Of a DNA stretch of 39,849 bases, positions 4,337 through 33,008 are shown one piece after another. Location: positions 1 to 39,849 of the IMG/VR virus record IMGVR_UViG_3300025407_000057; one strand, 5' to 3'. Within the stretch, counting starts at the first letter, position 1; the number at the start of each line of letters is the position of its first letter. The DNA is from a virus. The translations under genes were made by a program, and so were the position numbers. The notes under the pieces are model-generated. The model was given only the letters and a program-made list of their open reading frames with translations. It searched no databases and had not been told where the DNA came from.

Positions 4337-4712
4337 TTTTACCCTCCATTTCATCAATTATTGTTTGTAAGTCTAATATCTCTCGCCTAAGGTCAAAGTA
4401 AGTTTCAACTTTCATTACTGTGAGTATAGGTCGGTAGTTACCAGATATATGTAATAGGGGAGTTTGCGCACCACTTGCCTGTGATGTCGCCTGATCCCAC
4501 CATGCCCACAGAGATACCTTTTCTTGGTTCTTACACTCGTCTACATAAGCATAGTCATTAGGTTTCCATATATCGCCTTTAAAATGCGTCATAGCACCTG
4601 ACATGGGCATTCTAGTAGCTTTAGGGTCTATATCGTAATGCCGATACATACCTGCTATTTCTCGCTCTAGTCTATTGCCTTTCTGTTTCTTGCTCTGTGG
4701 GGTCTTAGCCAT
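4305..4712 (-). CDS. PD-(D/E)XK nuclease, Holliday-junction-resolvase-like
   Basis: A 135-residue protein with GNRLEREIAGMYR at the N-terminus (conserved helix-1 Glu), then FKGDIW and VDECKNQEKVSLW. Asp of KGDI and the E-x-K of DECKNQ form the split PD-(D/E)XK metal site seen in phage and archaeal resolvases. Such enzymes cut branched DNA before packaging. The C-terminal 30 residues are charged and helical. It starts two bases after the groEL stop, with AAAGGG upstream. A generic DNA-binding nuclease of the same fold cannot be excluded. Confidence 0.72.
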   Translation of the reverse strand: MAKTPQSKKQKGNRLEREIAGMYRHYDIDPKATRMPMSGAMTHFKGDIWKPNDYAYVDECKNQEKVSLWAWWDQATSQASGAQTPLLHISGNYRPILTVMKVETYFDLRREILDLQTIIDEMEGKNASKTRSKKS

Positions 4713-11168: not shown

Positions 11169-11573
11169 TTATTTGACCCCCACTGTACTATTCTCATATA
11201 CAGCATCAACTATTTCTTGCAGCATATTTCTGTAGTAGTAATATTGACCAGTTTGAATATTGCTTAAAATACCACCTTCAGTAAGCCCCATTTCTTCAAC
11301 AGCCTGATCTATGATATAAGCCCTGTTATAATCTTGAGCCAACCATTTCACTATATCGTGATTATATACATCAACAAGACCATCAGCAATTTCATGTAGA
11401 TTGCCATCTATTTCATCTTGATCTTCATTATTGTAATTTAATAAATTATGGCATAACCGTTCAATTTCTCTAATATGTAAATCTTTGATCCACAACCAAC
11501 TATTATTTCTTGTTTCATAATTTTTACTATTTAAAACTTTTAATTCTTGCCTTAATATCTCATTAAAATTCAT
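11169..11573 (-). CDS. hypothetical protein with HEIADG motif, 134 aa
   Basis: A mostly helical, acidic protein. NLHEIADGLVDVYNHDIVKW (about residues 59-78) resembles, from memory, a widespread family of small phage proteins built on a 'HEIADxxVxVY' core with no assigned role. The start follows AAAGGATTAAAGAA. Tyr-rich patch (QYYYYRN) near the C-terminus. Confidence 0.68.
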   Translation of the reverse strand: MNFNEILRQELKVLNSKNYETRNNSWLWIKDLHIREIERLCHNLLNYNNEDQDEIDGNLHEIADGLVDVYNHDIVKWLAQDYNRAYIIDQAVEEMGLTEGGILSNIQTGQYYYYRNMLQEIVDAVYENSTVGVK

Positions 11574-13802: not shown

Positions 13803-13831
13803 TTGCTTAAGTATAATGTATAATGTATAAT
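13803..13831 (+). promoter_or_regulatory. rightward promoter with three tandem TATAATG units
   Basis: TTGCTT (13803-13808), 17 bases, then TATAAT (13826-13831). Two more TATAAT copies lie 7 and 14 bases upstream (13819, 13812), making a perfect 7-base triplicate. It stands 26 bases before the first gene of the rightward region (ATG 13857). Confidence 0.7.
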
Positions 13832-13856
13832 GTATATTATAAATGGGGTTGGGTAT

Positions 13857-14198: not shown

Positions 14199-14284
14199 AA
14201 CTGAAGCTTGTAAGGCTGAAGAAGTGTTGTCTGCATAAACTTAGCTATGCTGAGTATTGTGTTAGATGTAGAGGGATTATCTAG
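14195..14284 (+). CDS. 29-aa cysteine-rich peptide
   Basis: A short frame with CCLHKLSYAEYCVRC, a Cys-Cys-x2-His ... Cys-x2-Cys zinc-knuckle-like pattern. TAGGAGGG gives a strong ribosome site, the ATG overlaps the previous stop (ATGA) and the TAG overlaps the next GTG. Three consecutive small genes here each carry a Cys cluster. Confidence 0.6.
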   Translation: MKLKLVRLKKCCLHKLSYAEYCVRCRGII

Positions 14285-14523
14285 TGAAAATCTTTGATGA
14301 CTATGATGAGAACAAAGACTTGTTTGGTAAGGACGATTTCTTTGAGATTATTAGAAAGAAAGATATGCAGAATGCTAGACGCAAGGAGGATTACCTATCT
14401 CAAATATTTATTGGATGGCAGTGTCCTATTTGCTGGGAAATATATAACCCTCATATATTAAATTGTGTAAAGGAACATAAGTATGGCTCAAACAAAAGAA
14501 CTAACAATACCCTACCATTTTGA
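14284..14523 (+). CDS. small protein with CPIC zinc-like motif, 79 aa
   Basis: Starts with GTG at 14284 (AGAGGG upstream; TAGTG overlap). It has an acidic N-terminus, a basic middle (RRKEDYL) and then QCPICWEIYNPHILNC, two or three metal-ligand-like cysteines. It overlaps the start of the terminase gene by 41 bases. Function unknown. Confidence 0.6.
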   Translation: MKIFDDYDENKDLFGKDDFFEIIRKKDMQNARRKEDYLSQIFIGWQCPICWEIYNPHILNCVKEHKYGSNKRTNNTLPF

Positions 14524-15880
14524 ACCTAGAACATACCAGATACCGTTCTGGTTAGCTATTCAAGATAAGCCTGTAGATAGAGCAGTGCTTGTATGGGCAA
14601 GGCGACATGGTAAAGACAAGACTATGATAAACGCACTTCTATTACAAATGCTTAAACGAGTTGCTAATTACTATTATGTATTCCCTGAGTTTAACCAAGG
14701 ACGAAAAGCTTTGTGGGATAACTTAGACAGTTATGGGTTTAAGACTATGGACCATATACCACAAGAGCTTAGAAAGAGAACTGACCAACAGCAGATGAAG
14801 ATTGAACTATATAACGGTTCTATCTTTCAGATTATAGGAGCTTCTGACATTGACCGTATAGTTGGAACTAACCCAGCAGGGATTGTGTTTAGTGAGTATT
14901 CACTTATGAGTCCAAACATTATTGGTTATCTATTACCGATTGTTGTTGAGAACAAAGGGTTCATGTGGTTTAACTTTACTCCACGAGGTGACAACCATGC
15001 GAGAACTTTATATCAGCAGGCAGTTAAGAATGGGTGGTTCGTTAGCTATGTAAATGCTAGAGATGCAGGACAATTTAGTGAACAAGAATTAGAAGAAATT
15101 AAAAAAGAATACAAGGGGTTATATGGTGATGAAAGACTTTTCAATCAAGAGTTTATGTGCTCGTTTGATGAACCGATACAGGGATCATATTACGGAGATC
15201 TCATTTCGTTGGCTGAAGAAACCGACAGGATTACGGATGTTCATTATAGGAATGAACTTCCTGTTCATACTTATTGGGATCTTGGTGTTGGTGATGCTAC
15301 TGGAATTTGGTTTGCTCAGTTTGTTGGTGATAAGGTTAATCTCATAGATTACTACGAGGGTAACGGTAAAGGACTTGACCACTACATAAAGGTATTACAA
15401 AACAAACCTTATGTGTACGGACAACACTTTGCACCACACGATATTAAGGTAAGGGAGTTTGGTTCTGGGTTATCTAGGGTAGAAACAGCTAGAAACTTAG
15501 GAATAAACTTCCGTGTAGCACCTAAATTAAAAATAGAAGATGGTATAAACGCAACAAGAATATTACTTCAAAGGTGTTACTTTGATAAGAAAAAATGTGA
15601 AATAGGTCTTGCTTGCTTAAAAAATTACCATAGAAAGTATAACGAAGAAACGAGGGTGTATGATAATAAACCACTTCATGATTGGAGTTCTAATGGGGCT
15701 GATGCTTTCCGTTATCTTGCAGTATCTGTCAAACAGAACCAAATAAGTAATTACAGCCCAACAGATGATATACCTGAGTACGCTAAGAGTGGGTTTAACT
15801 TTGGTAGTGCTGTTACAGACACTAGTAGGTTTACACAGCAAGATGACTTAGGTTTTGATAAAAATGGATTTTTAAGATGA
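14483..15880 (+). CDS. terL: terminase large subunit
   Basis: A 465-residue DNA packaging motor. The N-terminal ATPase has a Walker A variant WARRHGKDKT (about 38-47) and a Walker B GIVFSEYS (about 133-140) with catalytic Glu. The coupling segment FNFTPRG is near 163-169. The C-terminal nuclease starts at TYWDLGVGDATGIW (Asp near 266) and ends with HDWSSNGADAFRYLA, the final metal-binding Asp. Length and motif set are standard for phage large terminases. AAAGGAAC precedes ATG. The stop overlaps the next start (ATGA). Confidence 0.95.
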   Translation: MAQTKELTIPYHFEPRTYQIPFWLAIQDKPVDRAVLVWARRHGKDKTMINALLLQMLKRVANYYYVFPEFNQGRKALWDNLDSYGFKTMDHIPQELRKRTDQQQMKIELYNGSIFQIIGASDIDRIVGTNPAGIVFSEYSLMSPNIIGYLLPIVVENKGFMWFNFTPRGDNHARTLYQQAVKNGWFVSYVNARDAGQFSEQELEEIKKEYKGLYGDERLFNQEFMCSFDEPIQGSYYGDLISLAEETDRITDVHYRNELPVHTYWDLGVGDATGIWFAQFVGDKVNLIDYYEGNGKGLDHYIKVLQNKPYVYGQHFAPHDIKVREFGSGLSRVETARNLGINFRVAPKLKIEDGINATRILLQRCYFDKKKCEIGLACLKNYHRKYNEETRVYDNKPLHDWSSNGADAFRYLAVSVKQNQISNYSPTDDIPEYAKSGFNFGSAVTDTSRFTQQDDLGFDKNGFLR

Positions 15881-17085
15881 TTAAATATTTTAGTATGTTT
15901 AGTGGAATAGGAGGATTTGAAATTGGAATACAAAGAGCCTATGATGATGCAACAGGTAGGCGACAGAGCCAAGATGGGGGTGAGAGCTTGGAGCGTGACG
16001 AGAGTATGTCCATCCCTGCAAGCATCCCCTGGGAGCAAATACCCCTATGTATTGGTTACTCCGAAATTGATAAATACGCAATTAAAGTCTACGAAAGGAA
16101 CTTCAATGGACACACAAACTACAAAGATGCAACAAAAATTAACCCAGAAGAACTCCCAGATTTTGACCTTCTTGTCGGAGGATTTCCTTGCCAAGCTTTC
16201 AGCATTGCTGGAAAAAGAAAAGGATTTGAAGACACCAGAGGCACACTCTTCTTTGATATCGCTAGGATTCTTGCAGAAAAAAAACCCAAACATCTGGTTC
16301 TTGAAAATGTCAAAGGTCTACTTAGTCACGACCAAGGAAGAACTTTCCAGACAATCATTGGGGTTCTCTCCGACTTGGGGTATGGAGTTGAATGGCAGGT
16401 ACTTAACAGCAAAGACTTCGGAGTTCCCCAAAACAGGGAAAGGGTCATCATTGTCGGACATCTTGGAAACGAATGTGGACGAAAAGTATTTCCTATCACC
16501 AACGGCAGTAAAAGCCATCTTAAATACAGCGGGGGAGTCATTTCGTCTAGAGAAAAATGGCTTGAGGACGGCAACAACAACTCAAGGAACTTCTCGCAAG
16601 GACAACGGATTTACTCCACAGAGGGCATAAGCCAAACCCTTGCAGGACAGGCAGAAGGTCAGGGTGGTAAAACTGGTTTATATGAAATTGCAGATACTCG
16701 TATACGCAGACTCACGCCTAAAGTAGCTATACAAGAAGCAACTAAAAAAGGATATGCAGAAGCAACAGTAGGACAAGCTATAAATCTATCTCAACCAAAT
16801 AGTAAAACAAGACGAGGTAGAGTATCAGATATTGCTCAAACAATAGATACAGGTATGCAACAACATACACTTACAGAAGAAGCTCGTATACGCAGACTCA
16901 CACCTAAAGAATGTGAACGCCTACAAGGATTTCCAGATGATTGGACTAAGTATGGTGAAGATGAACACGGAATGAGAGTAGATATCAGCGACACACAACG
17001 ATACAAAATGTGTGGTAACGCAGTAACTACAAACGTAATACAAGCAGTAATAACAAACTTAATAAAATGTATGGAGGAAATATGA
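15877..17085 (+). CDS. C5 cytosine-specific DNA methyltransferase
   Basis: A 402-residue enzyme that methylates cytosine C5 using SAM. Motifs in order: FSGIGGFE (8-15, SAM loop), the catalytic GGFPCQ (Cys105), ENVKG (143-147), QNRER (185-189), and RRLTPKECERLQGFPDDW with GNAVTTNV near the end. An ~35-residue insert follows motif I. Between motifs the target-recognition region is odd: RIRRLTPK occurs twice (27-bp direct repeat, 16697-16723 and 16883-16909). No restriction partner is present, so it probably shields phage DNA from host enzymes. Codon use in the 5' two thirds looks different from the 3' end. Confidence 0.93.
   Translation: MIKYFSMFSGIGGFEIGIQRAYDDATGRRQSQDGGESLERDESMSIPASIPWEQIPLCIGYSEIDKYAIKVYERNFNGHTNYKDATKINPEELPDFDLLVGGFPCQAFSIAGKRKGFEDTRGTLFFDIARILAEKKPKHLVLENVKGLLSHDQGRTFQTIIGVLSDLGYGVEWQVLNSKDFGVPQNRERVIIVGHLGNECGRKVFPITNGSKSHLKYSGGVISSREKWLEDGNNNSRNFSQGQRIYSTEGISQTLAGQAEGQGGKTGLYEIADTRIRRLTPKVAIQEATKKGYAEATVGQAINLSQPNSKTRRGRVSDIAQTIDTGMQQHTLTEEARIRRLTPKECERLQGFPDDWTKYGEDEHGMRVDISDTQRYKMCGNAVTTNVIQAVITNLIKCMEEI
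16697..16909 (+). repeat. 27-bp direct repeat inside the methyltransferase gene
   Basis: Positions 16697-16723 and 16883-16909 match in 26 of 27 bases. Both encode RIRRLTPK in frame, 62 codons apart. Only the second copy continues into the conserved ECERLQGFP; the first runs into unrelated sequence. This suggests duplication or recombination within the gene. Confidence 0.85.
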
Positions 17086-17354: not shown

Positions 17355-17666
17355 ATGGCACAACAAGACTTTTGGACACTGTGGGCTAATGTCGGAAAAG
17401 AACTTATAGAGCACGGACAAGAAGTACAATTCGGACATTCATTACTTGAAGTTAAATACATGGAGGGCGTACCTAAAGTAATTATTTTAAGTAAGTCTAT
17501 TAAGCGTAAATTTCCTAGTGACGATATAGCTAAAATGAGTGTTGCACAAGAGATGGAAACTACCGAGAAAGCTAACTATACTGGTGCTAGAACATTCACC
17601 ATTACTTATGATAAAGGACACATATCTCACATTCTGCTTGACGAATACACCAACAAATTGTTATAA
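17355..17666 (+). CDS. hypothetical protein, 103 aa
   Basis: Mixed alpha/beta protein beginning MAQQDFWTLWANVGKEL. Unrecognised. It starts 3 bases after its neighbour's stop. The last codons overlap the -35 and -10 of a promoter that faces the portal gene. Confidence 0.68.
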   Translation: MAQQDFWTLWANVGKELIEHGQEVQFGHSLLEVKYMEGVPKVIILSKSIKRKFPSDDIAKMSVAQEMETTEKANYTGARTFTITYDKGHISHILLDEYTNKLL

Positions 17667-17667
17667 T
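17638..17667 (+). promoter_or_regulatory. promoter ahead of the portal gene
   Basis: TTGACG (17638-17643), an 18-base spacer and TATAAT (17662-17667) with TGT just before it (extended -10). A stem AGTAGT/GCTACT (17676-17681 with 17698-17703) forms in the leader but has no U-tract, unlike the three later modules. Confidence 0.62.
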
Positions 17668-17728
17668 GTGTTTTAAGTAGTGAGCCTAGGCAAAGCAGCT
17701 ACTCTGATTAACTTAATTGGAGTATGCT

Positions 17729-19933
17729 TTGGACGCAAAAAAAGAGCCACATCTATTAAACGAAAAAAGACGAGAAAAGGGTGCAGACTATGACACCGTT
17801 ATTCAAGATTTAGAAGAGAACGACAGAACTATTGGTGGCGACCTCCGACTCCGTGGTATGTTGGCTTCTCAATTTCAAACAGCACAAAACGCCCTTAGAT
17901 ACATGTCCTTAGACTGGGACGAATATGAAGACCTCTTATTCGTTCAAAGCAGAACTCCAGACAACTCTAAGATTAGACTTAGTGAAGGTAGCCTATCTAC
18001 CATTGTTATAGAACGAGCTGGACGAGTTATGTCTAAGTTACCAAGAGGAACTGTTCACGCATTTGGTTTACAAAATCAAGGTAAAGGTCAGTTAATGGAC
18101 TTACTTCTTGAAAAGTGGATATACCCTAACGCTAATTACCAATACGACCTAGAAACTAAACTATTTATGTGGGATATGTATTCAAATGTATATGGTACTA
18201 TGCCAATGTGTTATGACTGGACATACACACAAAACTATACAGGACCAGACTGCTGGTTAGTGCCAATTAGAAACTTTTTCCCACAACAAGGTAGATTCTC
18301 TATGCACAACTGTGACTATGTGTTTATCTCCAACTATATCAGCCGTGATTACTTAGAAGACCTAGTAGAGAATGAAGTTACTGACTACGACCTAGACGCT
18401 ATTGCACAGGTATTAGAGAAGACTAAACAAGGTAAGACACGACCAACTAGCTATGATGATTACTTGCGACACAACCCTATGTTCCAATACAGAAGACGAG
18501 CTGTATTTACTGACACAGGTGAAATAGAAGTTGTTACTAAGTACGAAGCTGGTGATGACGGACGCTGGATAGATTTCCTACCTGACTTTGGTAATTTAGT
18601 TATTAGAAACATTCCTAACCCACATCAGAACGGTAAAATACCTGTAGTGCTTAAGTACGCTATGCCGACACTAGACTCTGTTATTGGTTTAGGTGACATG
18701 GAAAAAGGACGATATGCTCAGTACGCTATTGACACTGTTACAAACCTACTTGTTGATGGTATTAAGCTTAGAACCTACCCACCAATCAAGGTATTAAACG
18801 GTAATGTAGTCATGCCAACTGTTAGATTCCAACCTGGAGCTAAATGGCTCGTATCTAACCCTAACGATATTAGTCACCACCAGTTCCCAGATGTAGATGG
18901 CAACAACAATCTCACATTCCAAATGCTTCAGGGCATAATGAGTAACATAACAGGTCAAACTACCACGAGAGCTAGTGGTGAATCCAATACACCAACTGAA
19001 GGTAAAACTCCACAAGCTATTAAAGCTCAGAACGCTAGCCAGTCTACTAGGGACGATATTGATTCTAAGTTTATGGACAAATCTATTGAAGAGCTATTTA
19101 ACGGTATGATTAGCCTAATAAATGATGTAGAGCATGACGAACCTATAGAACTTTACATGTTTAATGACGAAATTGCTGAAATTGCAGCTAGTTACCCTGA
19201 CATTAAGGACGCAGTTAAGATTTCTCCAAACGGAAAAACTGCAAAAATCACTATTAAACCATCAAGAATCAAGAATGAAAAGGGTTACATCTACAAAATT
19301 AACCCACGATCTACCTACATGGACGATTTGGACGCTCAACACGAGCAATTACTAGAGATTCACAACACATTAATGTCAAATCCTGGTGTAATGGACGACC
19401 AACTAGCAAAAAATGGCATGGCATTTGACTACGGTGAGTACTATAAGGAGCTTTTGATGACTGGTGGACTACGAGATGTTAAGAAATTACTCCGAAACAT
19501 GACTCCACAGCAACAACAGTCTTATCAACAGCAAAAAGGACTTGAACAACAGCGAACTATGCAAGAACGCATGGACATTAAAGACCTACCACCTGCAGCA
19601 GCAGCTCAAATGGCTAACCGAGCAGGACTACAAGTACAACCTCAAGATTTTATGCAGAATCAGATTCAAAAAATGGCACTTGAAACACAGAGCAAGGTTG
19701 AAGTTACACAAGCTAAGAATGGCAAACCTGTAAGCCCTATGACGCAACAAAGCGCTATGAATGGTATGCAACAGCCTCAACAGCAGAACGAAGGTCCTAT
19801 GGGGCTTCCTATGCCTCAGACAGGTTATACAGTGCCAGGTAGTCCAGAACCTGAGATGGGAAATATTAATATAGGTAATCCTGATATTGCACAAGCGATT
19901 GCACACATTAGGAGTACACACGGAAGGCTATAA
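17729..19933 (+). CDS. portal protein
   Basis: About 734 residues; the ring at the capsid vertex through which DNA passes. The assignment rests on position (after the large terminase, before scaffold and capsid), size typical of podovirus portals, an N-terminal region rich in helices and Trp, and a Gln/Met-rich helical C-terminus (QQQQSYQQQKGLEQQ). I start it at TTG 17729 because GGAG lies 6-7 bases upstream; no ATG exists nearby. An earlier TTG at 17717 lacks a site. No enzyme motif is expected. Confidence 0.82.
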   Translation: MDAKKEPHLLNEKRREKGADYDTVIQDLEENDRTIGGDLRLRGMLASQFQTAQNALRYMSLDWDEYEDLLFVQSRTPDNSKIRLSEGSLSTIVIERAGRVMSKLPRGTVHAFGLQNQGKGQLMDLLLEKWIYPNANYQYDLETKLFMWDMYSNVYGTMPMCYDWTYTQNYTGPDCWLVPIRNFFPQQGRFSMHNCDYVFISNYISRDYLEDLVENEVTDYDLDAIAQVLEKTKQGKTRPTSYDDYLRHNPMFQYRRRAVFTDTGEIEVVTKYEAGDDGRWIDFLPDFGNLVIRNIPNPHQNGKIPVVLKYAMPTLDSVIGLGDMEKGRYAQYAIDTVTNLLVDGIKLRTYPPIKVLNGNVVMPTVRFQPGAKWLVSNPNDISHHQFPDVDGNNNLTFQMLQGIMSNITGQTTTRASGESNTPTEGKTPQAIKAQNASQSTRDDIDSKFMDKSIEELFNGMISLINDVEHDEPIELYMFNDEIAEIAASYPDIKDAVKISPNGKTAKITIKPSRIKNEKGYIYKINPRSTYMDDLDAQHEQLLEIHNTLMSNPGVMDDQLAKNGMAFDYGEYYKELLMTGGLRDVKKLLRNMTPQQQQSYQQQKGLEQQRTMQERMDIKDLPPAAAAQMANRAGLQVQPQDFMQNQIQKMALETQSKVEVTQAKNGKPVSPMTQQSAMNGMQQPQQQNEGPMGLPMPQTGYTVPGSPEPEMGNINIGNPDIAQAIAHIRSTHGRL

Positions 19934-22449: not shown

Positions 22450-22485
22450 GGGGTAGGAGTGTAAAAGCTTCTACCTCTTTAATTT
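22450..22485 (+). terminator. hairpin terminator after the capsid gene
   Basis: GGGGTAGGAG (22450-22459) pairs with CTTCTACCTC (22468-22477): ten pairs, two G-U, 8-nt loop. TTTAATTT follows. A partial terminator would explain higher capsid expression relative to downstream genes. Confidence 0.72.
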
Positions 22486-22817: not shown

Positions 22818-23081
22818 ATGGACATTAACCTCAAAAACTTAGATGAGTCTAGGCGTAATGACTACATTAAGATGACTGAAAAGTTAAATGATCCTAACTC
22901 ATCAGACTATGACAAAAAAAGAGCTGCAGATGTTTTATATGCTTTGAAACTACAAGCTAACAGCAAACCAATACAAAAACTAAGAGAAGATATGCGTATA
23001 GCTGTATTAAATGGGGATAGAGATAAAGTTGAAAAACTAGGGGAAATAGCTAAAAAGGTTGATAGAGATTGGCGTTTCTGA
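22818..23081 (+). CDS. hypothetical charged helical protein, 87 aa
   Basis: I choose ATG 22818 (AGGTTGG upstream); the frame from 22794 begins with GTG inside the previous gene. All-helical, Lys/Asp-rich. Its last codons contain the -35 of the module promoter. Confidence 0.66.
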   Translation: MDINLKNLDESRRNDYIKMTEKLNDPNSSDYDKKRAADVLYALKLQANSKPIQKLREDMRIAVLNGDRDKVEKLGEIAKKVDRDWRF

Positions 23082-23087
23082 TATAAT
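23059..23087 (+). promoter_or_regulatory. module A promoter
   Basis: TTGATA (23059-23064), 17 bases, TATAAT (23082-23087) with TGA immediately before. A second TATAAT lies 13 bases further on (23095-23100). First member of a recurrent promoter-terminator arrangement. Confidence 0.78.
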
Positions 23088-23114
23088 ACAAGTGTATAAT
23101 GACTTTGAAATCAA

Positions 23115-23150
23115 AGAGTTATGCCCTAAATTAGGCGTAGCTCTTTTTTT
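23115..23150 (+). terminator. module A intrinsic terminator
   Basis: AGAGTTATGCC (23115-23125) pairs with GGCGTAGCTCT (23134-23144): 11 pairs with two G-U, 8-nt loop, then a T-run to 23150. AGGAG for the next gene begins three bases later. A separate CTTTGA/TCAAAG stem (23103-23116) overlaps its foot by two bases and may compete. Confidence 0.88.
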
Positions 23151-23166
23151 ATAGGAGAAAATAGAA

Positions 23167-24258
23167 ATGGCAGTACAATACACACCACAAGGCGTAGCTT
23201 ACCAGAATAACCCAGATTTTAGAGGTTATCTATCTGCGCAAGGTGGACAATATGCAGACCTACTTAACTATGTAGGTGGAGCAGACGGTAATAACCCATA
23301 CACACTAAACACTGATAAACTAGGAAGTCAAACGAACGCTTCTCAACTTAATCAGATGATTAAAGATGCGTATAGCAATTACTCTATGGGTACAAACATC
23401 AACCAAGGGGTAAACTACCAAGCACCATCATCTGGAGGTGGTGGAAATGCATCAGGATTAAGTGACACTGCTCAATCTCAAATGCTACAGGCTTTAGGAA
23501 CATCTTATAATGTGCCAATTCAGAATTATCAAACGCAATTAGGTAATATACCTAGCCAATACAACACAGATGTAGCCAACACACTAGGTCTATACGGTTC
23601 AGAGCAAACAGCTAATGCAGACCAAACCCAGAACCAACTAAACGTCTACGGACAACAAGAAGCTAACACTACTGCCCAACAACAACTATCTCTAGCACAA
23701 CTAGCTGAGAACATTAGAAGCCAGAATACTGGTTACCAAAACCAATTAGCTGAAAGAGGAGCTGGATCATCTAGTGCAGCTGGTATGGCACAATACGCAT
23801 TAGGTAAGCAACAAGCCCAGGAATCTGCAGGAATAAACCTACAAGCAAACACTAACAACGCACTTATTCAGCAACAAATGAATGCAGCAACTACTTCAGG
23901 TCAAGACTACTCTAAAATTCTTAATCAGCAACAACAAGGTGCGCTAACTGGTTTACTAAACAATTACAAGAGTCAAATGTATAACCTACAAGACAGTTTA
24001 GCCCAAGCAACAGGTGGAGAAGCTCGTGATGCTATTTATTACACTAAACAAGCATTAGACAACGATATGCTTAATAAGTTAAACAACTTAAACTCAAACA
24101 TAGGTAATGCTGGAACAGCTTTCTCACAAGCTCAAAACACAGCACAATCTAATATAAGTTCACAAGTTACACCAAACATAGCGACTAAACCAGACGCAGT
24201 AATAACACCACAAATAGGAAGCTTTTCACCCAATTTGAATAACAACCCAGTACTTTAA
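23167..24258 (+). CDS. Gln/Asn-rich virion protein, possible internal protein
   Basis: 363 residues, very rich in Gln, Asn, Ala and Gly, with long helical stretches (QQEANTTAQQQLSLAQLAEN) and few charged residues. Composition and position before a 1371-residue protein match small internal or ejection proteins of short-tailed phages. No enzymatic motif seen. Confidence 0.62.
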   Translation: MAVQYTPQGVAYQNNPDFRGYLSAQGGQYADLLNYVGGADGNNPYTLNTDKLGSQTNASQLNQMIKDAYSNYSMGTNINQGVNYQAPSSGGGGNASGLSDTAQSQMLQALGTSYNVPIQNYQTQLGNIPSQYNTDVANTLGLYGSEQTANADQTQNQLNVYGQQEANTTAQQQLSLAQLAENIRSQNTGYQNQLAERGAGSSSAAGMAQYALGKQQAQESAGINLQANTNNALIQQQMNAATTSGQDYSKILNQQQQGALTGLLNNYKSQMYNLQDSLAQATGGEARDAIYYTKQALDNDMLNKLNNLNSNIGNAGTAFSQAQNTAQSNISSQVTPNIATKPDAVITPQIGSFSPNLNNNPVL

Positions 24259-24273
24259 TAGAGAGGAGATAGA

Positions 24274-27200
24274 ATGCAGCCAAAACAGAACCCATTAGGT
24301 ATACCAACTACTGCTCCTGGACAAATCTTTGTTAATCAGAACCAACCAAAACCAATTACTATCACTCCTATGAGTGGTCCTAAAATACAGCCTGCTAATC
24401 AACAATTTAATATTTCACCCATACAAAGCCCTAACTTTAATATGAATGGGTTTATTAATGCACCTAATTTTATAGGTAATCCAGAACAACCTTCTAATAA
24501 CCCTATACAAAACATAAACAATAAAGTTAAGCAAAATCCTAGCATATTTACATCATTAGAAAATACTCTTATTCAAGGTGCAAAAGATGTAGGTGGTTTT
24601 GCCAAAGGAGTAGGTGGTAAGCTATTTGATTTGGGTAAGGGGATTGTAGAATACCCAATAACATTAGGTGGAGATGTACTTAAAACTGCTGGTTCAGCAG
24701 TTAAGAGTGCTGCTATATCTCTTGCCAGTGGTGCTGCATCTATGATTCCAGGTGGAGCTGAAACAATGAATCAACTTCAACAGAAGAGTAATGCAGAAAC
24801 TTCTGCCTACATGTCTAAACTAACCAGTGACTTAGAAAAGCTACCACAGGGCGCTGCTGCTGGTATTGCAGGTGGAATTAAATCTATATTTAACCCACAA
24901 ACTACAACCGTTCCTGTAGTATCTAAAAACCCTGTAACTAAATTCTTTGTAGGTAATCAACCTATTGAATCTGTTCAACAAGCGTATGAACAAGGTGGTA
25001 AAACACAAGGTGAAAAAGTTGGTGCAGGATTAATAGCTGCAATTAATGATATTTTATCTATTAAAGGTGGTAAAGCTGTATTAAAAAGTGGAATTTCTAA
25101 AGGTGCTGAGGTATTAGAACGCAACCCATCAGCAGAAACACTTAGACAACAAGCTCCAACTGTAGACCAAGTTCCATTTACAAAACGAGTTAATAATTTA
25201 GACGGAGATAAGGCTGCACAAACAGTGTTAGGTCGTGGTGGAACAATAGACCAAGCTGCAGCAGCATACGAACAAAAAGCACCACAAGTACCAAAAGAAG
25301 TTGTAGATTCAGAAGTATCTTACCTTGCAGATAAGACAGCACCTAGGTTTGATCCTGTTAAGTTTGATGAAAATGCTAATCCTAACTTAGTAAACAAAGC
25401 TGAAAAGTATGACGAAGTTCTTAACACAGACCTTAAAACCCCACAAAATAGTAAGACTCCGTTAATGGATTTACTTAAACAAGCAAATGGTAAAGCTCAA
25501 GAGGGTAGGATATATGCTAGTCAGTTTGCTAAAGAAATTAAGGGTATATTAACAAACAAAGATGATAGAACAGCTACTAGAGATGTATTAGAGGGTGCTG
25601 TAGACAAGTCTACTGTATCTGATGATGTTAGGTCTATAGCCAACATACTACGCCCTATAAACGACAAAATTCTTGCTATTGGTAGATACGATAATCCTGA
25701 CCTTGGTGAGCGAGAAAACTATGGAACAAGACAAATAATTAAAAGTAATGAAACTGCAAAACCTAGTGAATCACTTACTGTAAAAGGCTTTAACAATATT
25801 GCAGACTTGTTTAGAAAAACTTCATCTATAGCTGCACGAACTGAAATACATAAATTTGTAGACACTAAAGGCAACGCTAAATTTGGAACACTAGATGAAC
25901 TTAACCTTACTAGACTTGGTAATAACTTATTTAGAGATGAGAACGGCAACGCATATAAAGCTGTTCAAACTTCTGCTCGTGAAATAGAACAAAGTGGTAG
26001 AGCAATATACCGAAAAGACATAGCTAAAATAGCTGAAAAACATCTATCTGAAGCTGCAGTTGTAAGAGCAAGACAATTAGCTTACGAAGAAGTAATGCGT
26101 AACCCAGAAGCTTATGAAATTAGAGATGCTGCTAATGCAATAAAAGGTGATGTGCTCATTAAAAATGTACCAGATTTACAAGGTAAAGTAGCACCTAGAA
26201 ATGTTGCAAAGCTATTACAAGACACATTTAAAGAACCTGAAGGCATGAGTCCACTACAAAAAACTTGGCGTGGTGTTACAAGAACAGTTACTCAAGCCAT
26301 TATACTTAACCCATTTATACACGGTATGAACCTACTTAACCAAGCCATTATAGCTACTGGAGTAGGTAGAGAAGATTTGTCTATGCCAGCCAAAGTATGG
26401 AATGGAATGATTGCTAGTGGAAAGTTTGGTCATGCATTAATGGAACTAGCTGATCCTGATGTTAGACAAGCCATGATAAAAGAATATCTATCTAGAAGTA
26501 CTTTTGGTACTGGTGGTGGAGAAAGTGAAACAGTATTAACTCGTGCATTAGAAAGAATGAACTTACCAGAGTTTAATAAATTAAACGCTAAAGCCATGGA
26601 ATGGATTGATATGACATTTAGACTTGCAGCTCACAAAGCAAACCGTGAAGCTGGTATGTCAATTAAAGATAGTGTTGATGCAGTAGATAAGTTTATGGGT
26701 GACAATAGTAAAATACCTGAACTAGCACAAGACATAGGGCTATTCTATAGATGGAACAGAACACAGGGAATGGCATTATATTCACAACTTAGAAGCCCAG
26801 GAAGATACATGGGTGCTAATGTGGCTACGGCAGTAAACGCAGCTATTTACTTTGGACTAAACAGTGTTCTTCAAAAAGCTACAGGAAACCAATACGCATC
26901 AGATAGAACTCCTGGAGAACTAGGTATGATTAGAGATATATACCGTTTAGTTAAAGACCCATCTAACGCTCCAAGACAAATACTTACTAGCAAGACTAAC
27001 CCAATAATAGTTGAAGCACTTAACCAATTAATGGGTAAAAACATGTATTCTGGAAATACTTTAGATACTAACTCTGCAAGGTTACTTGATTTATACAATA
27101 CTTTGTTTGCCCCAGCTAAAAACATAACTAAGGTTACTAGTGGTAAACAAACATTACTAAGTGGATTTGTATTACCAGAATTTGGTATTAACTTACCTAC

Positions 27201-28389
27201 AGGTACGCAAGCAGAAGGTAAAGCACCTTACCAGGCAGCTCCTAATGCCAAAGGTATATTAAATACATTACTAAATGTTCCTGGTGCAGAAGGGGGAACA
27301 GGTGTAGCTCAGCAAAAAGCGTATATACAAGCTAAAGATGTACTTGATAAAACTCTAATAAATGATAAAGCTGCTCAAGCTGCAGTCCAACTTTACATGA
27401 GTAGTGAAGTAGATAATAAAGGCGTTAAGATGCAAAAGAGCGAAGAAGAAACTATAGGTGCTGCATTGGCAGTAGCTGGTAGTCCTAAAGGTCTTGCTGC
27501 ACTACAACAGTTTGCTAAATCTACTGGAGATAATAGTCTTATATGGAAACTAAATGGTGCAGACCTTAAAACATTCTTAGAATACAAAGCTGCTGATTCT
27601 GATCAACAACAGGCTATGATGCAAAACACTTTACCTAAGTTTGCAAACTTTAATAACGGTCAAGGATTAACGGATTTTGTTAAAGAATACCAACAATACT
27701 ACAAAGATAATCCAATTAAATCTACTATAGCTCCTAACCCAGCTAACCCTGTATACCCAACATTTACAGGAACACAAGCTGACAACCTAAATACATACAA
27801 GCAACAAATTAGTAAATTAGACTCATCTACAAAAAATAACTACTTGCTAAATCACCCAGAAGTAGTAGACGCTTTAGGCAAAGAAACTAAATACTATAAC
27901 GACTTAGCAGTAGCTCAAGGTGGACTAGCTAAAAAAGGCTTTACACCACTTACAGCAGACGAACAAAAGGGATTAGATACATATAGCTCACTTAAAGGGG
28001 ACAAGGTAGCACAAGGTCAATGGATTAAAGCTAACCAAGATTTATGGAACTCTATATCTACAAAACTTACTCAGAATAGCGTATTAGCAACAGCTGAGAA
28101 GGGTGCAGTAGAACAATACGAAGGCGTGCCATTTAGTGGACAATATCTCAAAGACATAGCATCAGCAGCTCAAGGTATAGCTAATGTAGGTGGCAACTAC
28201 CAGATAAACCCAGAAGCTGCATACCAGGCTAGAAAGACCAGTGCTGGCTCATCTTACAAACCTAGAAAACCTTTAATTATAAAGGCTAGAAAGATTAGAG
28301 CAGTTAGACCAAGCATGAAGCGTTTTAAACAACCAAAATCAGTTCGCATAGCTAAAACACAGAAACCACTTAGAATTGCGAAAGGCTAG
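24274..28389 (+). CDS. large internal virion / DNA-ejection-like protein
   Basis: 1371 residues, the largest protein. Pro/Asn-rich start; a Gly/Ala-rich amphipathic zone at about 90-175 (GGFAKGVGGKLFDLGKGIVE...) that could insert in membranes. A long helical body contains WRGVTRTVTQAIILNPFIHG near 668-687, and a strongly basic C-terminus ends in QKPLRIAKG. I find no lysozyme or transglycosylase motif. Giant helical proteins between capsid and tail genes in podoviruses are usually ejected with the DNA; that role is inferred. Tape measure is an alternative, but other long-tail genes are missing. Confidence 0.6.
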   Translation: MQPKQNPLGIPTTAPGQIFVNQNQPKPITITPMSGPKIQPANQQFNISPIQSPNFNMNGFINAPNFIGNPEQPSNNPIQNINNKVKQNPSIFTSLENTLIQGAKDVGGFAKGVGGKLFDLGKGIVEYPITLGGDVLKTAGSAVKSAAISLASGAASMIPGGAETMNQLQQKSNAETSAYMSKLTSDLEKLPQGAAAGIAGGIKSIFNPQTTTVPVVSKNPVTKFFVGNQPIESVQQAYEQGGKTQGEKVGAGLIAAINDILSIKGGKAVLKSGISKGAEVLERNPSAETLRQQAPTVDQVPFTKRVNNLDGDKAAQTVLGRGGTIDQAAAAYEQKAPQVPKEVVDSEVSYLADKTAPRFDPVKFDENANPNLVNKAEKYDEVLNTDLKTPQNSKTPLMDLLKQANGKAQEGRIYASQFAKEIKGILTNKDDRTATRDVLEGAVDKSTVSDDVRSIANILRPINDKILAIGRYDNPDLGERENYGTRQIIKSNETAKPSESLTVKGFNNIADLFRKTSSIAARTEIHKFVDTKGNAKFGTLDELNLTRLGNNLFRDENGNAYKAVQTSAREIEQSGRAIYRKDIAKIAEKHLSEAAVVRARQLAYEEVMRNPEAYEIRDAANAIKGDVLIKNVPDLQGKVAPRNVAKLLQDTFKEPEGMSPLQKTWRGVTRTVTQAIILNPFIHGMNLLNQAIIATGVGREDLSMPAKVWNGMIASGKFGHALMELADPDVRQAMIKEYLSRSTFGTGGGESETVLTRALERMNLPEFNKLNAKAMEWIDMTFRLAAHKANREAGMSIKDSVDAVDKFMGDNSKIPELAQDIGLFYRWNRTQGMALYSQLRSPGRYMGANVATAVNAAIYFGLNSVLQKATGNQYASDRTPGELGMIRDIYRLVKDPSNAPRQILTSKTNPIIVEALNQLMGKNMYSGNTLDTNSARLLDLYNTLFAPAKNITKVTSGKQTLLSGFVLPEFGINLPTGTQAEGKAPYQAAPNAKGILNTLLNVPGAEGGTGVAQQKAYIQAKDVLDKTLINDKAAQAAVQLYMSSEVDNKGVKMQKSEEETIGAALAVAGSPKGLAALQQFAKSTGDNSLIWKLNGADLKTFLEYKAADSDQQQAMMQNTLPKFANFNNGQGLTDFVKEYQQYYKDNPIKSTIAPNPANPVYPTFTGTQADNLNTYKQQISKLDSSTKNNYLLNHPEVVDALGKETKYYNDLAVAQGGLAKKGFTPLTADEQKGLDTYSSLKGDKVAQGQWIKANQDLWNSISTKLTQNSVLATAEKGAVEQYEGVPFSGQYLKDIASAAQGIANVGGNYQINPEAAYQARKTSAGSSYKPRKPLIIKARKIRAVRPSMKRFKQPKSVRIAKTQKPLRIAKG

Positions 28390-28404
28390 TATTAGTGATA
28401 TAAT
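28376..28404 (+). promoter_or_regulatory. module B promoter
   Basis: TTGCGA (28376-28381), 17 bases, TATAAT (28399-28404) with TGA just before. It overlaps the end of the 1371-residue gene, as module A overlaps its upstream gene. Confidence 0.75.
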
Positions 28405-28434
28405 GTAGGAGAATGCATTACAGCAGAGCTGAGG

Positions 28435-28460
28435 CACTCCTACTCAAGGAGTGTTTTTTT
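28435..28460 (+). terminator. module B intrinsic terminator
   Basis: CACTCCT (28435-28441), a 5-nt loop, AGGAGTG (28447-28453), then seven T (28454-28460): a perfect intrinsic terminator about 50 nt after the predicted start of transcription and 20 bases before the ATG at 28481. Confidence 0.9.
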
Positions 28461-28480
28461 AATTTAAAAAGGAGATAACA

Positions 28481-28846
28481 ATGGCATTTACACCAAATAA
28501 CCCATACGCTATATCTGACAACCAGCAGAGAGTAGTGGATGTACAAGAGGGAGCAACTGGAGTTTACGAAACCCTAAACGCTACTGCTACTTCATTTGTA
28601 TACTTAACAACTACAGCAGGAACACAAGTTAAAACTGGTCCTGGTATTTTTCACACACTATCAATTCTAGGTGCTAAAAGTTCTAGCCCTATAACTGTTT
28701 ATGATGGTACATCAACATCAGGAACAATAATCGCACAGTTTGGAACAGGTGCTCAAGCTGTTTCATTTACTTTTGATGCACAATTTAATACTGGTTTATT
28801 TGTTGTAGTGCCATCTGGTGACACTGTAACAATAACTTACTTATAG
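28481..28846 (+). CDS. small beta-rich virion protein, 121 aa
   Basis: A Thr/Val/Gly-rich beta protein (FHTLSILGAKSSSPITVYDG; VVVPSGDTVTITYL) like capsid decoration or head-fibre proteins. AAAAAGGAGATAACA precedes the ATG. No name can be given. Confidence 0.62.
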   Translation: MAFTPNNPYAISDNQQRVVDVQEGATGVYETLNATATSFVYLTTTAGTQVKTGPGIFHTLSILGAKSSSPITVYDGTSTSGTIIAQFGTGAQAVSFTFDAQFNTGLFVVVPSGDTVTITYL

Positions 28847-28855
28847 GAGTAATTT

Positions 28856-29677
28856 ATGGCTAACACTAGCCCAATGACATACCAAAACATAATTAATGCC
28901 ATTCAGCTACAGACTCTAAATGATCCTACGCCACCAGTTATAGGTTCACAGGAGTACAACATTTATGTTGGCATGATTAGAACATTAGCTATTCCTACAT
29001 GGGAAAACGAGCGTGGTGTTATTTGGGATGAGCTATGGGTTAATGAACCAAACTACTACACAATTACTGCAACTCCGTCCAATGTAACTACTCCTATCAA
29101 TATTCCTTTGCCATCAGACTTTAAGTTTATGTATGGTGGAACTATCTGGCTGACTTACCCAGGTTCAACGAACGCTTCCCCCAATGTTCGTTCATTTAAG
29201 ATTAAGAAATTACCTGAAATGGAAATGAACCCTCGTAACAATCAGCCAGAGTTCTATGTAACAGGCAACCCTGTATCTGGTTACAACCTTGTAATGGGTT
29301 GGTATCCACAGACAGGTGGTGCTGAAATAGGTGCTACTATATCTTTCCGATACTACAAGTTTGCTAACATTCCAGATATAACTAGCACAGGTGCTTTATC
29401 CAACCCTCAAGATACTCCAGAAATGGCAGACCCTAACTTTATTATTTACAAGGTATCTGCTCAGGTTTCTGCTAACAACTTCAATACTACCCTTTACCAG
29501 ATTATGGAAGACAAGGCTAACTACTCACTTCTCAACATGCGTATGGCACAAGAGATGAGTGCTAACTTCCAAGATGACTACCTACGAGATGTAGACAGTC
29601 TACTGGGCTACAGTGCTTATTTACCAAATAGATACAACAGTGGATACTGGACCAATAACGGTACAGGATTCATATAG
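28856..29677 (+). CDS. putative head-tail adaptor / tail tube protein
   Basis: 273 residues, helical start (TYQNIINAIQLQTLND), a beta middle (NIPLPSDFKFMYGGTIWLTY, FRYYKFANIP) and a helical end (DDYLRDVDSLLGYSAYLPNR). The helix-beta-helix plan, and being directly before the nozzle-like gene, agree with an adaptor of the T7 gp11 or P22 gp4 type. Inferred from position and plan. Confidence 0.52.
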   Translation: MANTSPMTYQNIINAIQLQTLNDPTPPVIGSQEYNIYVGMIRTLAIPTWENERGVIWDELWVNEPNYYTITATPSNVTTPINIPLPSDFKFMYGGTIWLTYPGSTNASPNVRSFKIKKLPEMEMNPRNNQPEFYVTGNPVSGYNLVMGWYPQTGGAEIGATISFRYYKFANIPDITSTGALSNPQDTPEMADPNFIIYKVSAQVSANNFNTTLYQIMEDKANYSLLNMRMAQEMSANFQDDYLRDVDSLLGYSAYLPNRYNSGYWTNNGTGFI

Positions 29678-29685
29678 GAGATTAA

Positions 29686-32034
29686 ATGCCAGGACAAACA
29701 ACTAAGGTTAATGCTGCAAACATTCGCCCCTACGAACTTATAATTGGTGGGCAGAACAATCAATACAACTGGCGACCAGGTGTTATTTCTTTCGTACAGG
29801 AAGACCGTCTACCTATTGGTGCAGTAACTCAAGCTAAAAACATGATGATGACTCAGGATGGTGTGTGGGCAACCAGATGGGGTTCTAATAACTATGGTAA
29901 AGCATACTCAGGTCCTATAACAGGAATGACTGACTTTACTACTATTATTAACGGTGTAACAACTAATTACATCATGATAGTAGACAACGGTACTGTTAAA
30001 TACTCCAAAGACGGTGGTAACTGGTCAAGCGTATCAGGAACAGGTCCAGGAGCTAGTAATCACCTAGTATCTACTAACCAGGGAACTACTTACCTATCTG
30101 CAGCTATTACTACTACAACAGCTACCTCTATAACCGTAGCATCAGCTACTAACTTTCCATCTAGTGGTTCATTCATTATTACTGTAGACAGTGAGCAAAT
30201 GAATGTTACAGCAGGTGCAGGAACTACTACTTGGACTGTAACTAGAGGTGTAAACGGAACTACCAAAGCTACACACTCAGCTAATGCAGTAATCAGTTAC
30301 GGAAGCCAAGTATGGACACAACTTCTTCAATACCAGAACAAGATTTTATTTGCTAACGGAGTAGACAACTTTGGTTACATAGATATATCTACAAGTACTA
30401 TATCTGGATGGGTAGGAACTGCTACCACAACTAACATTACTAGCGCTACTGCTACAATCGGTTCTCAGCTTACACAGCGCACTAATAACAACCTACTTAG
30501 GTATTACATAACTACAGTTACTAAAACAGGTGAAACAGCTCCATATCAGGTTGCAGATGTATATGTAGACCAAGCTCGTGAAACATGGTGGGCTAATAAC
30601 ACTTCTACACAAAGTTCTAATACTAATGTATTTATTAAAATTGCATGGACTGGTTCATCAGATTCAAATGTTATTGGCTACAATATATACCTTGCTCAGG
30701 CGATAGGTGGAGTAGCGTATTTCTTAGACTCAATATCTGCTAATACAGGTGGTACAGTTACTTACACAGACTGGGGTTCAACCGTAGTAAACAACTATGT
30801 AATTGCACCAGTTACTGACACAACCTTAGCACCTAAATTTAACTGGATGGCTATATCTGATAACAGATTATGGGCTACAGGTGATCCTAACAATCCTAAC
30901 AGAATATACTGGGCAGGAGCACAACTTCAATACGCACTAGGCTTTTCTCCATTTGTTGGTGGTGGTTGGGTAGACATACAGCCAGGAACACCTAACACAC
31001 CTAGATGGATTGGTCAGTTCCGTGACGGACAGGGTAACCCTATTACTACTATCTTAATGGCAGAACCATCAGGCTATGGTTCGGTATGGCATTGTATGCT
31101 TACAGACACAACCTTTGGTAACTATACATTTACCACACCTACTGTAGTTCAGGCTATGCAATCATTCGGTACACTATCCCCTAGAAGCGTTGTACAGACC
31201 CTACAGAATGTTTATTACTACTCACCTGGACCTGCAGGCTTTTATTCAAATGGTAGCATCCAGACGCTTTACAATGTGCTTGCAACCAATGAAATAAGTC
31301 TAGTAATCCGACCTGACTGTAAAGCTATTACTTATAACGCAATTAATAATATTACTGGAATAGAGTTTGATAAGAAAATATTCTGGTCTGTTCCTTATGG
31401 CTCAAGCCAAAACAATCAGATATTTGTATATGATACAGCCAAGCAGAACTGGAATCCTGCAGCGTTTACTTTTGGTGTACAACAGTTTATGAAGTATACC
31501 GACAACTCTGGAGTATTACACCTATTAGCATTACAGACTACACCTGTTAATGGTAACTACCTAATAGAGATTAGTGCTGACTTTAATGGAGATAACGGAT
31601 TACCTTTTGATTCACACATTCAAACTGGTCTTATACATGTTAGCCCAGACCACTTACAGTTTGCCAACATTCAATACGCATACTGGGAAATGGGTTCAGC
31701 TGAAGGACAAATACAGCTGGCATTCTCAGGTACGACTAAGAACACGCCACTATCTAATCTAGCCACTTATTCGTATATAGCAGGAAGCTCGGCTAATAAT
31801 ACTGGATTCTCTAGCTTTGCATTTAGCACAAAACCATTTTCGTACGCATCTGTCGCACCTACACAGGTTACTGAACTTGCAGACAAGAAGCGTATTCGTA
31901 TTACCAAGCTTGTAAACAACTGGGAGGCTGAAGTACACACTAACACGGTAGCTTCATACCTAACACTTAACCAGATGGTAGTGAAAGGTTTTATGATACC
32001 AACACAAGACCCAACAGGATGGATATTAAACTAA
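29686..32034 (+). CDS. putative tail nozzle protein with Ig-like insert
   Basis: 782 residues. The N-terminus (PGVISFVQEDRLPIGAVTQA, NMMMTQDGVWATRWG) and many short beta blades (ISDNRLWATGDPNNPNRIYW) match the beta-propeller nozzle proteins of short-tailed phages (T7 gp12 / P22 gp10 type). About residues 136-206 form a separate domain (TSITVASATNFPSSGSF ... VTRGVNGTTKATHS) that recurs in the next protein. It should form the distal tail channel. Confidence 0.62.
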   Translation: MPGQTTKVNAANIRPYELIIGGQNNQYNWRPGVISFVQEDRLPIGAVTQAKNMMMTQDGVWATRWGSNNYGKAYSGPITGMTDFTTIINGVTTNYIMIVDNGTVKYSKDGGNWSSVSGTGPGASNHLVSTNQGTTYLSAAITTTTATSITVASATNFPSSGSFIITVDSEQMNVTAGAGTTTWTVTRGVNGTTKATHSANAVISYGSQVWTQLLQYQNKILFANGVDNFGYIDISTSTISGWVGTATTTNITSATATIGSQLTQRTNNNLLRYYITTVTKTGETAPYQVADVYVDQARETWWANNTSTQSSNTNVFIKIAWTGSSDSNVIGYNIYLAQAIGGVAYFLDSISANTGGTVTYTDWGSTVVNNYVIAPVTDTTLAPKFNWMAISDNRLWATGDPNNPNRIYWAGAQLQYALGFSPFVGGGWVDIQPGTPNTPRWIGQFRDGQGNPITTILMAEPSGYGSVWHCMLTDTTFGNYTFTTPTVVQAMQSFGTLSPRSVVQTLQNVYYYSPGPAGFYSNGSIQTLYNVLATNEISLVIRPDCKAITYNAINNITGIEFDKKIFWSVPYGSSQNNQIFVYDTAKQNWNPAAFTFGVQQFMKYTDNSGVLHLLALQTTPVNGNYLIEISADFNGDNGLPFDSHIQTGLIHVSPDHLQFANIQYAYWEMGSAEGQIQLAFSGTTKNTPLSNLATYSYIAGSSANNTGFSSFAFSTKPFSYASVAPTQVTELADKKRIRITKLVNNWEAEVHTNTVASYLTLNQMVVKGFMIPTQDPTGWILN

Positions 32035-32056
32035 TGTGTATTTTTAACTTTATTTG

Positions 32057-32065
32057 TGATATAAT
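32057..32065 (+). promoter_or_regulatory. module C promoter (extended -10)
   Basis: TGATATAAT (32057-32065) as in modules A and B, but with no good -35 (TGTATT-like). The extended -10 may compensate. Confidence 0.55.
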
Positions 32066-32092
32066 AACTAAGAACACTCAGTACAGAGTTAC

Positions 32093-32122
32093 AGGTGCTC
32101 CCTTGTCGGAGTACCTTTTTTT
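32093..32122 (+). terminator. module C intrinsic terminator
   Basis: AGGTGCTCC (32093-32101) pairs with GGAGTACCT (32108-32116), nine pairs with one G-U, then T-run to 32122. The following CTTTTTTTATAGGAGAAA is almost the same as in module A, ending in ATGGCA in both. Confidence 0.9.
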
Positions 32123-32135
32123 ATAGGAGAAATAA

Positions 32136-33008
32136 ATGGCAGCAGCAAACACAGATTTAGTACGAAACGCAGCACCTAACTTCGCTACAAACCTAACAGG
32201 ATCAATGTTAAGTAGTGATACTAGTATGACTGTAGCTTCAACCACAGGATTACCAACTGGTACTGCTGTTACATTAGTTATTGACGCAACCGACCCTGTA
32301 TCTGGAGCATCTACTCCTTCTCTTAAAGAAGTAGTAACTGGAGTAGTATCTAACTCAACTACTGTAGGTAACTTACTTAGAGGTAAAGACGGTACTACAG
32401 CTCAAGCTCACACATCTAACGCTAATGTTACTATGTGGATTACTGCTAACCTATGGAATGATTTCCAAAGCTCTTACTTAGCACAGCATACTCAAGCTGG
32501 TTACCACTATGGAATATCTAACACAGGTGGAATGAGCAACTCTGGTGGATTCTCTACTGACTCTATTACTGTATCTGGTACAGCTTCACTTCCTACATTA
32601 GGTAACACTGCAGTATCTGGAACACTATCTGTATCTGGAGCTACAACCCTTACAGGAGCTTTAACAGCTAACGGTGCTACATTTAACGGTGCAGTTGGTA
32701 TATCTCCACAAAGTGCAACTACAGTAGCTACTACATTAACACCTAGTTCTTCTAATTTTGTAGTACTAACAGCTCAAACCACAGATTTTACAGTAGCTTA
32801 TCCAACAATAAGTGCAACAGAAGGTGAAACATTAGTTATAAGAATAAAAGATAATGGAACATCTCACAATATTAACTGGAACAGCGTATACAATCCAATT
32901 CAAGTTACTTTGCCATCATCAACAACAGCAGGCAAGACACATTACATAGGTTGTAAGTGGAATGGTTCTACAACCAAATGGGATGTTCTTAGCGTAGCAG
33001 TAGGATAA
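32136..33008 (+). CDS. tail fibre or spike-like protein, 290 aa
   Basis: The N-terminal domain (SMTVASTTGLPTGTAV ... LLRGKDGTTAQAHTS) resembles the insert of the nozzle-like protein. The middle is a Thr/Ser/Gly beta-repeat zone (TVSGTASLPTLGNTAVSGTL), and the end (HYIGCKWNGSTTKWDVLSVA) is a compact beta tip. Probably an exposed tail component. Confidence 0.58.
   Translation: MAAANTDLVRNAAPNFATNLTGSMLSSDTSMTVASTTGLPTGTAVTLVIDATDPVSGASTPSLKEVVTGVVSNSTTVGNLLRGKDGTTAQAHTSNANVTMWITANLWNDFQSSYLAQHTQAGYHYGISNTGGMSNSGGFSTDSITVSGTASLPTLGNTAVSGTLSVSGATTLTGALTANGATFNGAVGISPQSATTVATTLTPSSSNFVVLTAQTTDFTVAYPTISATEGETLVIRIKDNGTSHNINWNSVYNPIQVTLPSSTTAGKTHYIGCKWNGSTTKWDVLSVAVG

Follow-up and report, generated by a model that had tools for sequence, protein, structure and literature searches.

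Repeated promoter-terminator modules with competing leader RNA folds precede late genes in a virus record

In well-studied phages, late genes are mostly expressed by means of new sigma factors, new polymerases or activators, or from one antiterminated promoter. Here we describe four modules in virus record IMGVR_UViG_3300025407_000057, in each of which a predicted promoter is followed by a terminator-like hairpin, a ribosome site and a late gene, and in which the leader RNA can form a second fold that competes with the hairpin. The whole stretch of 39,849 nt (39.8 kb) is referred to as the window.

Described antitermination systems and the modules of the window

As regards mechanism, and without implying that the modules belong to that system, the nearest analogue is the action of LicT, SacY and BglG on the RAT element of bacterial sugar operons. 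There the protein holds an antiterminator stem with internal loops that overlaps the terminator, and termination is the default (PMC3369936). The likeness observed is one of architecture. In contrast to LicT/BglG-RAT, the present element lies at about +1 and stands in several copies per phage before virion genes, some copies appear to act on translation, and no match to a CAT_RBD protein was found in the record.

A terminator placed close behind a promoter is also described in single copies. In the pR′-tR′-Q system of lambda and phage 21, late genes need antitermination at a terminator close behind the late promoter, and the alpB promoter of Pseudomonas aeruginosa is followed by an immediate intrinsic terminator that has to be bypassed with AlpA. 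Control of the Q or AlpA type depends on sigma pausing and on an element bound at the promoter (PMC6606751, PMC9371919). A third kind of system is putL of phage HK022, a structured RNA at the 5′ end of an operon transcript that is tied to readthrough; put RNA is ~70 nt long, has two long stem-loops and affects terminators up to 10 kb away (PMC9378689). The initial annotation of the window knew of no phage system with a repeated layout of this sort. Apart from the single copies just named, the literature searched, in which few subscription papers were within reach, yielded no case of a promoter-terminator layout that recurs before phage late genes, and a repeated switch for virion genes appears to be undescribed.

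The right part of the window (~14-39.8 kb, + strand) carries terminase, portal-like, major capsid and further late genes. Three promoter-terminator modules had been proposed there (A, B and C), and their TATAAT boxes, hairpins and 7-T runs are all present. The extended −10 TGATATAAT begins at 23079, 28396 and 32057 (TATAAT at 23082, 28399 and 32060, with TG ahead of each) and is followed by a hairpin, a run of seven T residues (23144-23150, 28454-28460 and 32116-32122), a ribosome site and a start codon. By score the three hairpins are the top three + strand terminators of the late half. The distance of ~50-57 nt that had been assigned to the hairpins applies instead to the ends of the T-runs, counted from the predicted transcription start; from the first base of the −10 to the beginning of the stem there are 32-33 nt. 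A fourth module, P (17638-17729), was found ahead of the portal-like gene. Its −10 overlaps the stop codon of the preceding gene (17355), and its promoter is kept in near relatives. The sole other strong + strand terminator, at 22450-22477 after the major capsid gene, is without a promoter.

Two sequence features had been reported as common to the modules. The string CTTTTTTTATAGGAGAAA is indeed shared by A and C. The word AGAG(T/C)T does occur in A, B and C, but it is not a single element, because its structural places differ among the three and module P lacks it. Coupling of the modules to upstream translation is unsupported, as the upstream stop codons lie at or before the −10. The genes behind modules A, B and C gave no informative family match, and for this reason the label ‘virion gene’ for them rests on position.

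The placing of the −10 boxes differs from chance expectation. The window and its relatives gave 63 non-redundant terminators lying ahead of a gene; many are orthologues, so that they are not independent. A −10 of score ≥6 stands 28-65 nt 5′ of 25 of them, and 2.5% of random positions have one there; for the full score of 7 the values are 13 of 63 and 0.4%. The sequence TGNTATAAT by itself is not rare (six in the window against 3.7 expected, four of the six within modules). What is rare is the placing of the −10 box before terminators.

Leader RNA folds and their conservation

When the upstream sequences of orthologues are compared by eye, the leaders have a common architecture that starts at about +1, ~7 nt past the −10 box. 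It consists of an outer stem and an inner hairpin, whose loop is conserved within modules, with an asymmetric internal loop between the two. The internal loop has 3-4 nt on its 5′ side (TGA, CGA, TCA, CCA, ATCA or ATTA; typically Y-V-A) and 2 nt on its 3′ side (AG, AA or AC; typically A-R). Because the 3′ strand of the outer stem doubles as the 5′ arm of the terminator, the two structures, which we call antiterminator and terminator, are mutually exclusive. For nearly all modules tested the nascent prefix is predicted to fold as antiterminator, and for ten of the ten compared the full leader is predicted to fold as terminator; for module C with a shorter start, the antiterminator is not the best nascent fold. 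From these folds we infer that the default would be termination and that readthrough would require something that stabilises the antiterminator.

Compensatory changes are seen in the alignments of several leaders. For module P, across 11 portal leaders, 96% of cells are paired, four of the five outer pairs are changed on both sides, and none of 500 shuffles scores as high for covariation; pairing of the terminator is seen in 87%. Module B and its relatives have 100% of cells paired with four pairs changed on both sides, and their covariation is matched by one shuffle in 500. For module C, where the compensatory evidence comes from few sequences, one relative replaces GAACAC/GTGCTC by GAAAAC/GTTCTC and GTA/TAC by GTC/GAC. 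Leader hairpins also covary in distant modules, where 12 and 20 of 500 shuffles score as high; in the distant L374 group it is the inner hairpins that do so. L374 itself carries a homologue of the portal-like gene that resembles an annotated portal.

As the leader structures had been drawn after the sequences were seen, the leaders were also compared with dinucleotide shuffles. Taken up to the terminator 5′ arm, the leaders of 23 non-redundant modules fold to −9.0, against −6.2 for shuffled sequences (standard deviation 0.4), and none of 5000 draws is as low. In the same set sequestration of the terminator 5′ arm is more frequent than expected (P 0.01), and an asymmetric enclosed hairpin is present in 22% of modules against 4% in shuffles. 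A covariance model built from portal leaders only was run on 678 kb, and its first three matches outside the training set were window module B, the C module of L072 and window module C (E 0.022 to 0.098). According to the alignment, most of this signal comes from a common terminator stem, GGnACTCC..GGAGT, so that the model backs the kinship of the modules more than it backs the antiterminator.

Neither of two simpler signatures is distinctive. The Y-V-A / A-R descriptor matches the + strand of the window 11 times, twice at modules, and shuffles give 3 to 11 matches; it was rejected as diagnostic by itself, and only its placing at modules is diagnostic. A ribosome site in the terminator 3′ arm, considered as a general rule, occurs in 18 of 38 modules and in 9 of 22 other terminators. 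Separately, hairpins that precede terminators in distant phages have the loop CTCTAATG in common (L408 1632-1664, L415 6654-6693 and L427 5248-5285), which suggests a recognised loop.

No close relative was found among GenBank phages. Viral contigs from lake metagenomes carry promoter and terminator at the same places, and the extended −10 is kept wherever the terminator is kept; loss of the box from terminator-keeping relatives, named by the initial annotation as evidence against the modules, was not seen. A capsid-protein profile retrieved 272 distant relatives, of which 80 were retained, and many of these have the order of promoter, structured leader, terminator and start codon, the start often directly after the T-run. 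In the final set the layout precedes the portal gene in 22 contigs (portal identity ~28-57%), the 23167 homologue in seven and the 28856 homologue in five. Module B holds its place and not its gene, because in G006 and G007 the module stands directly before the 28856 homologue, with the 28481 gene missing from its usual place. In these two genomes a 28481 homologue lies near the 13830 homologue (L068 2111-2440; L071 14467-14796, − strand). Leaders B′ and C′ of G009 are without a T-run, and a competing hairpin covers ribosome site and start instead, so that transcriptional and translational outputs look interchangeable, as is also seen among riboswitches.

The layout was not seen in Bacillus phage Pony, Streptomyces phage Manuel, MW202801, Paenibacillus phage API480 or Pseudoalteromonas phage Y3, which carry terminators, several of them post-capsid. 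The unannotated gut contig MT836150 may have the layout at 4681.

Proposed control of the late units and competing explanations

With moderate confidence, we propose that each of the four late units begins with an attenuator that is off by default and is opened by a factor that stabilises the antiterminator. RNA polymerase would initiate ~7 nt past the −10 box, and the first 25-35 nt of RNA would fold as antiterminator. Since the 3′ strand of the outer stem can pair in the antiterminator or in the terminator, one fold would persist; alone, the terminator is predicted to be the stabler, and the default product would be an aborted RNA of ~50-57 nt. One factor common to all modules, probably phage-made and present late, would bind and hold the antiterminator and thereby let polymerase through to the virion genes. 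The gate would also act on transcripts arriving from upstream, because those carry the identical leader RNA. In some relatives, where the competing hairpin hides the ribosome site, an equivalent switch would operate at translation. What the sequence comparison shows is the order of promoter and terminator, its conservation, the competing folds and the compensatory changes; promoter activity, termination, the default state and the factor with its identity are inferred. Of the two outcomes offered by the initial annotation, a short terminated RNA or regulated readthrough, the second is better supported, by the covarying competing fold and by the conservation of the layout at a distance, and short RNAs would be a by-product of the off-state.

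Several observations weigh against this proposal. In the window’s own module P the T-run is poor; the covariation of module A, taken alone, is weak; and the module C antiterminator is weak at −3 to −4 kcal/mol. Outer pairs in the L374 group (GGT/ACC and GTCT/AGAC) are invariant and hence give no covariation signal, and in several distant modules (L371, L423, L370 and L378) the competing fold is not evident. Sequestration of the terminator arm, when tested sequence by sequence, is mostly not significant. Finally, no regulator was identified by searching the record for PF06530, PF03589, PF03123 and PF03861 or from the fold of gene 17355.

Of the other explanations, the one that survives best, though we judge it unlikely, is that the hairpins are unregulated partial terminators that lower late expression and set its ratio, block readthrough from upstream and protect mRNA 5′ ends, with the leader hairpins serving stability only. 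Short leaders do commonly fold, and the capsid-gene terminator at 22450 is of a plain attenuating type in this group. A terminator that is located 3′ of its own promoter does not insulate that promoter, however, and the compensated outer stem employs the terminator’s own arm.

Control of the lambda Q or AlpA type, in which a protein loads at the promoter on a sigma-paused polymerase that then ignores the terminator, would make the leader structure incidental. This seems improbable, for it leaves the compensatory changes in the leaders and the ribosome-site version in G009 unexplained. The order of promoter, terminator and late gene is that of the lambdoid late promoter and of alpB (PMC6606751, PMC9371919), and window module A contains a second TATAAT box, at 23096, as a potential site of sigma pausing. 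By eye, this second box is found in window module A and not in the relatives of that module, and a pause there was rejected as not conserved. Whereas lambda Q acts through promoter DNA and a sigma pause at one site, neither is conserved here and there are four modules. Likewise, the element to which AlpA binds lies between −35 and −10, but by eye the spacers of the P, A, B and C promoters share no motif there, and no PF06530 or PF03589 protein was found in the record.

We consider it about equally improbable that the 5′ hairpin itself renders RNA polymerase resistant to terminators, as HK022 put RNA does, with no protein involved. Like putL, the element is at the extreme 5′ end of the transcript (PMC9378689), and a phage protein would be unnecessary. 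Yet the present hairpin overlaps a terminator arm, with one terminator for each element, whereas putL is longer, has two stem-loops without terminator overlap, acts on polymerase at a distance and serves early genes; the window modules also had no Rfam match. That the modules yield terminated RNAs of ~50-57 nt acting in trans as small regulatory RNAs is very improbable: the layout would give discrete short RNAs, and conserved inner loops would suit them, but the position before orthologous start codons and the conserved alternative pairing fit control in cis better.

The likeness of module A to the freshwater-2 RNA (RF02980; best 28 bits, Rfam gathering cut-off 49.9) was rejected as a chance likeness of hairpin and ribosome site. 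Both have hairpins followed by a ribosome site and ATG, but in the scan of viral contigs for the freshwater-2 core the genuine copies differ: they follow a TAAATA box, precede MGRP... genes and are without a terminator. A scan of the genome contigs with the core pattern gave scattered, chance-like matches. Apart from the modules, RF02980 scores above its cut-off in ~50 viral contigs (L339-L368), close behind a TAAATA box and before open reading frames starting MGRP or MGN. In T4-like phages freshwater-2 apparently serves as a late leader RNA, the TAAATA box resembling the T4 late promoter.

Under the proposed attenuator control, a repeated RNA switch seems to govern several late operons, at the same genes across phages that share only ~30% portal identity and for which no close relative turned up in the annotated phage records searched, and would point to a new RNA-binding factor. 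The leader would offer a compact, ready-made expression switch, and lake metatranscriptomes are predicted to contain 5′ RNAs of ~50-57 nt from the portal and other virion operons. More tentatively, and as something possible rather than probable, the modules may form a multi-site phage riboregulon in which one RNA-binding factor, possibly from a new family of proteins of which gene 17355 could be an example, opens the repeated late-operon switch with interchangeable termination and translation outputs, and by which this clade of uncultured phages times or balances virion production.

Candidate regulator and neighbouring features

The gene at 17355, which belongs to a family found across the clade, is a speculative candidate for the regulator. 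Its predicted structure is confident (pLDDT 88), and Foldseek returned no match with E < 0.001, while the best Z among the families listed, 6.7, was middling; as the fold has no clear match, we claim no function for it. The record gave no match to Q-family proteins (PF06530, PF03589), AlpA-like folds not having been searched for; none to CAT_RBD (PF03123), which could still be host-encoded; and none to ANTAR (PF03861). Coordinates of this gene, of the modules and of the genes behind them are collected in Table 1.

Table 1. Positions in the window of the module elements and associated genes
Feature	Coordinates	Strand	Sequence or remark
103-aa gene directly 5′ of module P	17355..17666	+	family across clade
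Module P promoter	17638..17667	+	TTGACG, 18 nt, TGTTATAAT; 11/12, TG before −10
Module P antiterminator RNA	17676..17703	+	AGTAG-TGA-GCCTAGGCAAAGC-AG-CTACT
Module P terminator-like hairpin, sequestering the ribosome site	17699..17726	+	weak T-run here, 8 T in L016
Portal-like gene	17717..19933	+	probable start TTG at 17717 or 17729
Module A promoter	23059..23087	+	TTGATA, 17 nt, TGATATAAT; 11/12
Module A antiterminator RNA	23094..23124	+	GTATAA-TGA-CTTTG(AAAT)CAAAG-AG-TTATGC
Module A terminator hairpin and 7-T run	23113..23150	+	
Late gene (363 aa) after module A	23167..24258	+	without family match
Module B promoter	28376..28404	+	TTGCGA, 17 nt, TGATATAAT; 10/12
Module B antiterminator RNA	28414..28436	+	TGC-ATTA-CAGC(AGA)GCTG-AG-GCA
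Module B terminator hairpin and 7-T run	28431..28460	+	
Late gene (121 aa) after module B	28481..28846	+	
Module C extended −10 TGATATAAT	32057..32065	+	without good −35
Module C antiterminator RNA	32072..32100	+	GAACAC-TCA-GTA(CAGAGT)TAC-AG-GTGCTC; relatives GAAAAC..GTC..GAC..GTTCTC
Module C terminator hairpin and 7-T run	32093..32122	+	
Late gene (290 aa) after module C	32136..33008	+	C-terminal part matches phrog_3030 (unknown function)

The terminator at 22450-22477 (+ strand), between the capsid gene and the next gene, has a counterpart at that place in Pony, Manuel, MW202801 and API480. Its 5′ arm, in near relatives, is able to pair with the end of the capsid coding sequence (GCTTCTAT..), and the site is possibly a translation-linked attenuator.

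Elsewhere in the window, the phage encodes a GroEL (4715-6328, − strand; phrog_5725, E 7e-144), a protein with weak likeness to ocr-like anti-restriction proteins (11169-11573, − strand; phrog_2568, E 1.6e-4) and a DNA methyltransferase (15877-17085). A small protein with a CxxC..C..H pattern, matched by near relatives only, is encoded directly 5′ of the terminase gene (14284-14523, + strand). Tandem TATAATG repeats (13811-13845, + strand) stand directly 5′ of gene 13830, and the N-terminus of its product, by eye, looks ribbon-helix-helix-like.

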